From: Acidimicrobiaceae bacterium
Lineage (GTDB): Bacteria; Actinomycetota; Acidimicrobiia; Acidimicrobiales; RAAP-2
Length of the DNA: 64,000 nucleotides
Reading direction: 5' to 3'
Assembly (NCBI GenBank): GCA_003133325.1
Contig: PKXA01000022.1
Coordinates: forward strand, 1-64,000
The notes beneath the pieces were generated by a model. It was not told the origin of the DNA, ran no database searches, and saw only the letters and a program-made list of their open reading frames with translations. Within the stretch, counting starts at the first letter, position 1. The number at the start of each line of letters is the position of its first letter. This document shows, piece by piece, positions 1,519 through 4,332 of the stretch. A program made the translations under genes and the position numbers.

Positions 1519-2493
1519 ATGCAGGGAACCCTCACTCGTGACGGCACAACAGTCACAGCAACCCGGAACCTCATCGACCAGAGCCTCTCCTCGGGGACGT
1601 TCTTCTGGCTCGATCTCGACGGTGTCGACAGTGAGGCCCACGATGTCCTCCTCACTACGTTTCACGTCCACCATTTGGCGGTGGACGATGCTCAGAACTT
1701 CGGCCAGCGTCCGAAGATCGAGGACTACGACAACTTCACCTACCTGGTGGTCCACGGGGCAGGTCTCGATGGGAAAGGAACCCTTGAAGTTCATTTCATC
1801 ATCGCCGAACACTTTGTCATCACCGTTCACCGCGGCAGCTGCCCGGCCTTGGACAGCGTGCGTGCTCGGGCGGGGCGGCCCAGCGCCCCCAAACTCGTGG
1901 CGCCCCAGATCGCTTTGCTCTATCTGCTGATCGACCTCCTGGTGGATAGCTTCTTTCCATTCCTTGATGCGTTCGACAACCAGATCGATGAACTCGAGGA
2001 CGCTATTCTGGTGAATCCCACCAACCAGCAATTGGGGACGTTGTTCGACCTCAAACGCAACCTGATCTCGGTGCGGAAGGTGGTCACCCCCCAACGTGAC
2101 ATGTTCGCCGGCATCATCTCAGGAGTCACCCCTATTCCTGGTATGACTGACGAAGGTCAGCGGTACTTGCGCGACATCTACGACCACTTGATCCGGATCA
2201 GTGACCTGGTCGACAGTTACCGCGACCTGCTGAGCGGGGCTCTCGATACCCACCTGTCCACGGTGTCGAATCGCCTCAACGTGGTGATGAAGCAACTGAC
2301 GATCATTGCCACCATCTTCCTTCCCCTCACCTTCGTCACCGGATTCTTCGGCCAGAACTTCGCGTGGTTGGTTACCCGGATCAACACTGGATGGGCGTTC
2401 GTGATCTTTGCCATCGGTCTCGAAGTCGCCTGTGCCCTCGGACTGGCGGTCTATTTCCGCAAGAAGGGGTGGCTGGGCGCGGATTCTGGTTAG
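1519..2493 (+). CDS. CorA family magnesium/divalent cation transporter
   Basis: ORF 324 aa; C-terminal two-TM region with TFVTGFFGQNFAW (GxN signature region). Confidence 0.9.
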   Translation: MQGTLTRDGTTVTATRNLIDQSLSSGTFFWLDLDGVDSEAHDVLLTTFHVHHLAVDDAQNFGQRPKIEDYDNFTYLVVHGAGLDGKGTLEVHFIIAEHFVITVHRGSCPALDSVRARAGRPSAPKLVAPQIALLYLLIDLLVDSFFPFLDAFDNQIDELEDAILVNPTNQQLGTLFDLKRNLISVRKVVTPQRDMFAGIISGVTPIPGMTDEGQRYLRDIYDHLIRISDLVDSYRDLLSGALDTHLSTVSNRLNVVMKQLTIIATIFLPLTFVTGFFGQNFAWLVTRINTGWAFVIFAIGLEVACALGLAVYFRKKGWLGADSG

Positions 2494-2511: not shown

Positions 2512-2775
2512 CTACTTCGGACCATCTCTGAGCACGCCCCTCCATGATCGCCACGACATGACGGAGAGGACCGAGAACGCGGAGAGCAGTGAGGCCGCTC
2601 CCAGGAATGAACCCACCGACGCCACTGATACCGCCGACCCCACCGATCCGATGGAGAGGATCGACCCCACCGATCCGATGGAGAGGATCGACCCTTTCGA
2701 GTTGATGGAAAGGATCGAATCCGTTGAGTTCACCGACCAGAGAGCGTTGCCCACCGAGTGTTTCGAGCTCGACAT
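2512..2775 (-). CDS. Small Ser-x-x triplet-repeat protein (SILSIGSVG repeats)
   Basis: Minus-frame ORF, internal ATG at 2775; SxxSxx periodicity over most of the length; codirectional 44 nt after the lipoprotein gene. The opposite strand is also open, so strand assignment is moderate. Confidence 0.55.
   Translation of the reverse strand: MSSSKHSVGNALWSVNSTDSILSINSKGSILSIGSVGSILSIGSVGSAVSVASVGSFLGAASLLSAFSVLSVMSWRSWRGVLRDGPK
2641..2694. repeat. Two perfect tandem copies of a 27-bp unit (CACCGATCCGATGGAGAGGATCGACCC)
   Basis: Copies at 2641-2667 and 2668-2694 are identical by direct reading. Confidence 0.95.
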
Positions 2776-2819
2776 GGCTCCAGTATGCCCGTCGCGGTCC
2801 GGACTCACATGCGGAGCCG

Positions 2820-3347
2820 CTATGGGGTTCGAACGGCCGATCCGGCAGCATTGACGACATACCAACGCCCGCCGAGATTGGTAAGGGCCTGGCCGGTGGC
2901 CTGGCCCGGGGCAGTGTCTTGCGGCCAGGTGTAAAGAGGCCAACCGTTATAGGTGATCTGGGTCGTCCCATCGGCCCGAGGCGAAGTACCGAGCAGCGCT
3001 GGCTTGATGCCTGGTCCGGCGATGGGTGTTCCCGTACCCGGTTGCAGTACGAGAGGTGGCCACTGCACCGCGCAGAGACTCACGCACGTTGACGGGGCTC
3101 CCTGGTGATCAGCGGCGAACAGATAGACGGTCAACCCCCTCCCATCCACCAACACCCCACCGAGCCCCGACACCGTTCCGATCTTCACTTCGTCGGCCGG
3201 GCCATTCTCGAAATTCGGCGTCGAGCCGCCGTAGGGGGCGCGCACGGCAACCCCCGGGGCAGTACTGCAGCCACCGAGAAGGCATACGACCAACAGGAGA
3301 CCACTGGCAATGCCGCGCCGAGGCAACGAAACGGAGCGCACGTTCAT
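2820..3347 (-). CDS. Secreted lipoprotein, Secreted_repeat/COG4315-like
   Basis: Signal peptide with lipobox LLGGC; GLTVYLFAADHQG...CVSLCAVQWPPL motif; ATG at 3347 overlaps upstream stop. Confidence 0.8.
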   Translation of the reverse strand: MNVRSVSLPRRGIASGLLLVVCLLGGCSTAPGVAVRAPYGGSTPNFENGPADEVKIGTVSGLGGVLVDGRGLTVYLFAADHQGAPSTCVSLCAVQWPPLVLQPGTGTPIAGPGIKPALLGTSPRADGTTQITYNGWPLYTWPQDTAPGQATGQALTNLGGRWYVVNAAGSAVRTP

Positions 3348-3958
3348 CGGGTGGTCGGATCGTGGTGAGCCGCTTCGATTGCCTCGAGCGTAGGGCTCGG
3401 ATAGGCGCCGCGACCCGGCCGCCACCCGGCCGCCAGCTTCTGTTCGGCAACTCCACCTTCGGCCCAGATATGGCAGGTATTTCGGACCCAAGGGCTATGC
3501 GTTCCGGTAATCAGGTCTTCCGATTTCCCACGAGCGACCGCCAGTGCCCGCTTCGACGTCACCGCCTGGATGACAACCGGACCCAACGATCTGGCGAGGT
3601 GCTCAAGGTGAGAGCACCCTTGTGGCCCTCCGAACAGGTTCTGCACTTGGCGGGTGAAACCCCGTCCGACCTGCAATCCCGCCAAGCCTCTGAAGGCAAA
3701 GAGGATCCATGGGCATTCGGCGTGGGGAAACACGTGCATCAACGCGTCGGACTCGACGATGATCAGGTCGTCGACTCGAACGGTGACCCGAAGCTCCATG
3801 TCATGGACATGCTGGACAGCGGTGCCGTCGGCGGCCCACGGGCGGGTGTCACGCAGACGCCCGACGATGGTCAGGTCATCTTCGCCGTCAAACGCTTGAT
3901 ACTCGATGGTCCGCACGTGGAGTGGAACGGGAGGACTCTCCGAGGGACTGCCGTTCAT
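3344..3958 (-). CDS. DUF2889 domain-containing protein
   Basis: ORF continues from 3994; internal ATG at 3958 gives a 4-nt overlap with the upstream gene; RTIEYQAFDGEDDLTIVGRLRDTRPW pattern resembles DUF2889. Confidence 0.7.
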   Translation of the reverse strand: MNGSPSESPPVPLHVRTIEYQAFDGEDDLTIVGRLRDTRPWAADGTAVQHVHDMELRVTVRVDDLIIVESDALMHVFPHAECPWILFAFRGLAGLQVGRGFTRQVQNLFGGPQGCSHLEHLARSLGPVVIQAVTSKRALAVARGKSEDLITGTHSPWVRNTCHIWAEGGVAEQKLAAGWRPGRGAYPSPTLEAIEAAHHDPTTR

Positions 3959-4332
3959 TTGGGTGAAGGGAGGTCGACGATGACGTACGACCACAGTTCG
4001 CTGTGGACACCGACCGGCGGGGGAGAGTCTGTCCTGGGAGCCTGGGGTCGATCGGTGTCAGCGTGTTCTTGTGGATTCGCATCTTCACGTTCAGATTGAC
4101 CGCGGTGCCCATGAGCAAATGCGGGGGACGAAACCCACGCGTTGAACGAATCCTCGTCCCTCCACCTGGTGACGACCAGCCACGTGCTTCGGTCGTCGTT
4201 CGGCTGCATGAGCTCAAACCCCTCGAAGCCATCCGCGTCGTCGACCGCGCCGGCCCGGCTGGCAAACCTCCGGCCCAGTTCGTCACCCGATCCCTCGCGT
4301 ACGGTAATGGCGTTGATCTTCACGACTGTCAT
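3955..4332 (-). CDS. Antibiotic biosynthesis monooxygenase (ABM)-fold protein, heme-degrading monooxygenase-like
   Basis: ORF 125 aa; MTVVKINAITV...FEGFELMQPNDDRSTWLVVTRWRDEDSFNAWVSSPAF. Confidence 0.8.
   Translation of the reverse strand: MTVVKINAITVREGSGDELGRRFASRAGAVDDADGFEGFELMQPNDDRSTWLVVTRWRDEDSFNAWVSSPAFAHGHRGQSEREDANPQEHADTDRPQAPRTDSPPPVGVHSELWSYVIVDLPSPK

Follow-up and report, generated by a model that had tools for sequence, protein, structure and literature searches.

A small protein with serine at every third residue, encoded in an Acidimicrobiaceae genome, and its relatives in three bacterial phyla

The gene described here lies on the minus strand at positions 2512-2775 of the window, the 64,000-nucleotide stretch of Acidimicrobiaceae DNA (contig PKXA01000022.1) that was analyzed, with its ATG at 2775-2773 and its stop codon at 2514-2512. 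The 87-amino acid product of this SxxSxx gene, P0001 (translated from 2775 to 2512: MSSSKHSVGNALWSVNSTDSILSINSKGSILSIGSVGSILSIGSVGSAVSVASVGSFLGAASLLSAFSVLSVMSWRSWRGVLRDGPK), has a short N-terminus outside the repeat (MSSSKHSVGNALWS...) and a nonapeptide array at residues 20-55 (2611-2718, minus strand) made of SILSINSKG, SILSIGSVG, SILSIGSVG and SAVSVASVG. The two identical units, residues 29-46, are encoded by a perfect tandem repeat with a period of 27 bp and about 2.2 copies, which covers 60 bp (2635-2694, strand not assigned), includes a 33-bp exact match at a spacing of 27, and sits centrally in the gene; SILSINSKG, residues 20-28, is a diverged third unit. An irregular triplet region follows at residues 56-83 (SFLGAASLLSAFSVLSVMSWRSWRGVLR; 2527-2610, minus strand), so that the C-terminal third of the protein retains the triplet and has lost the nonapeptide; AlphaFold2 predicts a low-confidence helix there, with pLDDT of 50-60. 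Of the 25 serines, 22 share one triplet phase, a number that none of 100,000 residue shuffles reached. Both the near-regular serine at every third position of the minus-strand product and the perfect 27-bp core repeat had been pointed out in a preliminary description of this DNA, and both hold. A DNA pattern search of the source genome gave no match.

A convergent gene for a CorA magnesium/cobalt transporter (1519-2493, plus strand) neighbors the SxxSxx gene, and upstream of it on the same strand are the genes for a Lipoprotein_15 (secreted repeat) protein (2820-3491, minus strand) and, beyond that, a DUF2889 protein (3344-3994, minus strand). The order DUF2889, Lipoprotein_15, SxxSxx, CorA is conserved in close relatives only, and the close Acidimicrobia retain CorA and Lipoprotein_15 beside the SxxSxx gene. 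The Corynebacteriales have one context, comprising an unnamed gene of about 260 codons, GT87, and an Rv2525c-like gene. Elsewhere the neighbors differ in nearly every genus, and a search among the SxxSxx neighbors revealed no gene partner common to the different groups. A shared operon partner was rejected because GT87, Rv2525c-like, SRAP, APH, CorA, Uma2 and other genes do not recur between groups. In 39 Corynebacteriales loci the gene immediately preceding the SxxSxx gene is a conserved one of 261 amino acids (L061:5093-5878, plus strand) that found no match in a Pfam search. The sole tRNA gene found in the window is a tRNA-Pro (ggg) at 684-761 on the plus strand.

The plus strand of the window is also open, in a frame that reads DPTDPMERID, and the coding strand was decided by comparison with relatives. 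Of the 19 bases that differ from L021, which is the closest among the matches listed and has the same gene order, 15 occupy third codon positions; codon changes number 14 synonymous and 4 non-synonymous in the minus-strand frame, as against 8 synonymous and 11 non-synonymous in the plus-strand frame. The dN/dS of the P0001 gene is 0.09 with L021 and 0.23 with L022, and across 19 pairs of relatives the minus frame ranges from 0.00 to 0.51 with a median near 0.12. The plus-strand frame is interrupted by stops in many relatives. The plus-strand product is rejected on these codon counts and stops, and the minus-strand assignment of the preliminary description is confirmed: homologs exist, and it is the minus frame that they conserve. 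By this evolutionary evidence the SxxSxx family is translated and under selection, and P0001 is a real and previously undescribed small protein.

A start signal can be proposed from comparison between relatives; a sigma-70 consensus scan found no site near the P0001 start. The putative promoter element is a -10-like hexamer, CATACT, 6 nt upstream of the ATG (2782-2787, minus strand), and relatives have CATAAT, CACGAT or CATGAT at the identical distance. In 13 of 25 actinobacterial starts (window included, Corynebacteriales excluded) the motif YANNNT stops precisely 6 nt short of the start codon, and none of them has it at any other offset between 0 and 15. Among the Corynebacteriales, GTGGTAnAC ends 6-8 nt before the start in 36 of 40 cases. 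In Nocardia/Rhodococcus, L057 and 35 further loci conserve this motif strongly and share little sequence on its upstream side, which gives it the look of an extended -10 promoter belonging to a leaderless gene. A -10-like element 6 nt before the start is the layout of leaderless mRNAs in actinobacterial promoters. The layout favors the ATG at 2775 as the start codon and transcription of the gene on its own, and the SxxSxx mRNA is probably leaderless in the window's organism.

Across 84,980 species genomes, at least 75 loci were found to encode SxxSxx relatives. In profile searches the family was present in 31 of 397 Actinobacteriota genomes, a count based on matches partly read by eye that may include some simple repeats, in 17 of 251 Chloroflexota (16 after dropping one simple repeat), and in 10 of 244 Cyanobacteria (7 after dropping three). 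The genomes dropped were the cyanobacterial G683 and also G673, G644 and G812, where only (SVG)n, (SVP)n, HARS-type or SVR repeats matched. In the cyanobacterial phylum search, G683 contributed ten scattered (SVG)n or (SPH)n simple coding repeats (L103, L107-L115), and these places may belong to a 9-bp DNA repeat dispersed through the genome and not to the SxxSxx family. The distribution of the family is patchy across the three phyla; the preliminary description mentions similar SILSIGS-rich proteins in actinobacteria, where they were indeed found, and they extend to the Chloroflexota and Cyanobacteria. The family has no match in Pfam, and a literature search found no paper carrying the peptide, so in many genomes the genes probably carry a hypothetical label or no annotation whatsoever. 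PADLOC gave no match, and a defense system was set aside for that reason; the few PHROG matches are all to families without function. Phage or virus cargo was discounted for lack of a match in phages or IMG/VR, and plasmid cargo because the single match in the plasmid collection is a 2.66-Mb Nocardia farcinica replicon, although these negatives are weak because the BLAST low-complexity filter masks such arrays.

The period of the protein is three residues. The hydrophobic moment of the ideal nonapeptide unit is 1.52 at 120 degrees and 0.00 at both 100 (alpha) and 180 (beta) degrees, and the array in the window peaks at 1.16 at 120 degrees, with 0.13 at 100 degrees. The repeat cores of 38 Nocardia/Rhodococcus proteins are 54 (35 proteins), 45 (two) or 60 (one) residues long, and those of the other actinobacterial members range from 45 to 66, all multiples of 3. 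Because core lengths vary in steps of 3 and not only of 9, the conserved register is one of three residues and not of nine, and the strict three-residue period first noticed in P0001 extends to its relatives. In 438 units from relatives, Ser occupies positions 1, 4 and 7, Leu position 3, and Gly (64-70%) positions 6 and 9 only. The cores are poor in charge, with 0-2 charged residues in cyanobacteria and Chloroflexota, and their mean hydropathy reaches 1.47, the cyanobacterial maximum. The Chou-Fasman propensity of the unit is higher for beta (1.11) than for alpha (0.88). An uncharged C-terminal 18-residue segment with a mean hydropathy of at least 1.6 is present in 12 relatives of several lineages and absent from most, P0001 included. 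Membrane segments were located only in the C-terminal tails, and inspection of the relatives' N-termini, which are short, polar or basic, revealed no export signal. The surface-adhesive role suggested in the preliminary description is not supported by these termini, as the listed proteins have no signal-like hydrophobic segment at the N-terminus. The solenoid fold suggested with it fared no better in two AlphaFold2 runs: P0001 (mean pLDDT 48, weak helix at 56-83) and the longer and more regular Ktedonosporobacter array (mean pLDDT 45) were both modeled without strands, and neither run yielded a confident fold.

Given its length, its near lack of charge and its abundance of Ile, Val and Leu, the array would be expected either to self-assemble or to enter the membrane. 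The explanation that we prefer, tentatively and at somewhat short of an even chance, is an intracellular scaffold that assembles itself, associates with the membrane and has a structure of three-residue period. An uncharged array of Ser-aliphatic-x triplets is unlikely to exist as a soluble monomer, and its copies would pack into an assembly that resembles a fibre or a sheet and truly repeats every three residues, either by polyproline-II-like or 3-10-like stacking or as a beta-rich polymer, presenting Ser, Ile/Val and Leu/Gly faces. The C-terminal segment, which is a helix-prone tail in P0001 and an explicit membrane anchor in other lineages, would tether the assembly to the membrane's inner face as a scaffold. 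Consistent with this proposal are the evidence for coding and selection, the gene's own start signal, the 120-degree moment, the multiples-of-3 cores, the low charge, the C-terminal anchors and the beta propensity. On the other side, the AlphaFold2 confidence values lend the assembly model no support, the hydropathy of the cyanobacterial arrays would suit a membrane-embedded protein too, no partner gene or phenotype indicates a scaffold, and the anchor is missing in most relatives.

Inner-face self-assembly ranks above the alternatives, among which the one with a possible if lesser claim is a small integral membrane protein whose array itself spans the membrane as tightly packed helices, regulating or forming a channel or pore. 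The Microcystis array, with hydropathy up to 1.47 and zero charges across 54 residues, would suit such a protein, as would the basic residues that many relatives have at one or both ends and the low-confidence helix at residues 56-83. It is harder to reconcile with an array that has no 100-degree helical signal, although amphipathicity is not required of membrane helices, with a unit whose beta propensity exceeds alpha, with the separate and more hydrophobic C-terminal segment that several relatives already own, and with the charged residues within the triplet run of actinobacterial cores. We consider improbable a beta-solenoid or beta-roll with two nonapeptides per 18-residue coil, of the calcium-free RTX roll or antifreeze solenoid type, that binds a surface, ice or mineral. 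Strict units of this kind are frequent in solenoids, and both the nonapeptide period and the 54-residue core (6 x 9) are common; against this reading, lengths step in threes, rather than nines or eighteens, and the C-terminal part keeps the triplet without the nonapeptide. Neither strands, in models that are themselves of low confidence, nor an export signal was seen. RTX beta-rolls are built of a nine-residue repeat unit with the motif GGxGxDxUx; the SxxSxx protein shares the nine-residue unit and differs in lacking this motif and Asp, as well as in its 3-residue length steps and the absence of predicted strands and apparent secretion.

The resemblance of the triplet serines to His-Xaa-Ser proteins raises the idea of a RiPP precursor matured by radical-SAM enzymes. 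HxsA4 (NCBIfam NF038313) is likewise a small protein with Ser at each third residue, and its model has sub-threshold matches in 21 of 40 members at E <= 0.01 (best 2e-7). P0001 is not among the 21, however; it scores 13.9 bits against a cut-off of 55 and has no His-Xaa-Ser repeat. HxsC (TIGR03977) exceeds its cut-off in none of 11 carrier genomes, which show only a generic radical-SAM background like that of controls, and no maturase occurs among the scanned neighbors, making a RiPP precursor very improbable. Hardly any credence is left for functionless repeat DNA or a plus-strand product, which the perfect 27-bp repeat and the open plus-strand frame of the window might suggest: the third-position changes and low dN/dS belong to the minus frame, the plus frame has no such constraint and contains stops in many relatives, and the serines of the same nonapeptide are TCN codons in actinobacteria but AGY codons in the other two phyla.

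Among known structures, the glycine-rich polyproline-II bundles of snow flea antifreeze protein, the acetophenone carboxylase beta subunit and the phage S16 adhesin tip (PMC8409303) share with the SxxSxx protein an exact three-residue period and faces of unlike character. They differ in composition: the SxxSxx unit has Ser at position 1 and Ile/Val at position 2, and is not glycine-rich with Gly on the packing faces. No sequence match in the PDB stands for the family, and profile matches there to kinesin light chain and nucleoporin chains were taken as low-complexity chance. For at least 20 triplets with Ser, not Gly, in a strict three-residue period, the sequence searches made here found no matching solved structure. 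Compact and easy to express, the SxxSxx protein lends itself to testing what may be a new principle of assembly.

The serine codons of the nonapeptide units divide the phyla. TCN outnumbers AGY by 451 to 59 in actinobacteria, while AGY outnumbers TCN by 69 to 0 in cyanobacteria and by 147 to 37 in Chloroflexota, and the AGY bias of the cyanobacterial and Chloroflexota arrays departs strongly from adjoining genes (e.g. Ktedonosporobacter, p = 2e-10). TCN and AGY codons are not interchangeable by a single silent step. The same nonapeptide is therefore maintained by selection despite different codons in the three phyla, and its recurrence indicates that strong selection or convergence preserves the exact unit. 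Either the arrays were expanded separately from founder units or they were invented on more than one occasion. Block order differs as well: actinobacterial members mostly place the array ahead of an irregular SRWS-type block, and members from Chloroflexota and some Acidimicrobiales place the irregular block ahead of the array, which is usually followed by a basic tail. The differences between phyla in codon choice and array position suggest separate expansion, perhaps convergence, although they do not distinguish common descent from convergence. It is possible, if doubtful, that a new self-assembling three-residue-period architecture arose or was re-expanded separately in actinobacteria and in Chloroflexota/Cyanobacteria and converged on SILSIGS(V/A)G. 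One actinomycetote member (L069:939-1418), with a Glu/Pro-rich tail, has mixed serine codons (18 AGY, 9 TCN) and is a possible intermediate between the TCN and AGY groups.
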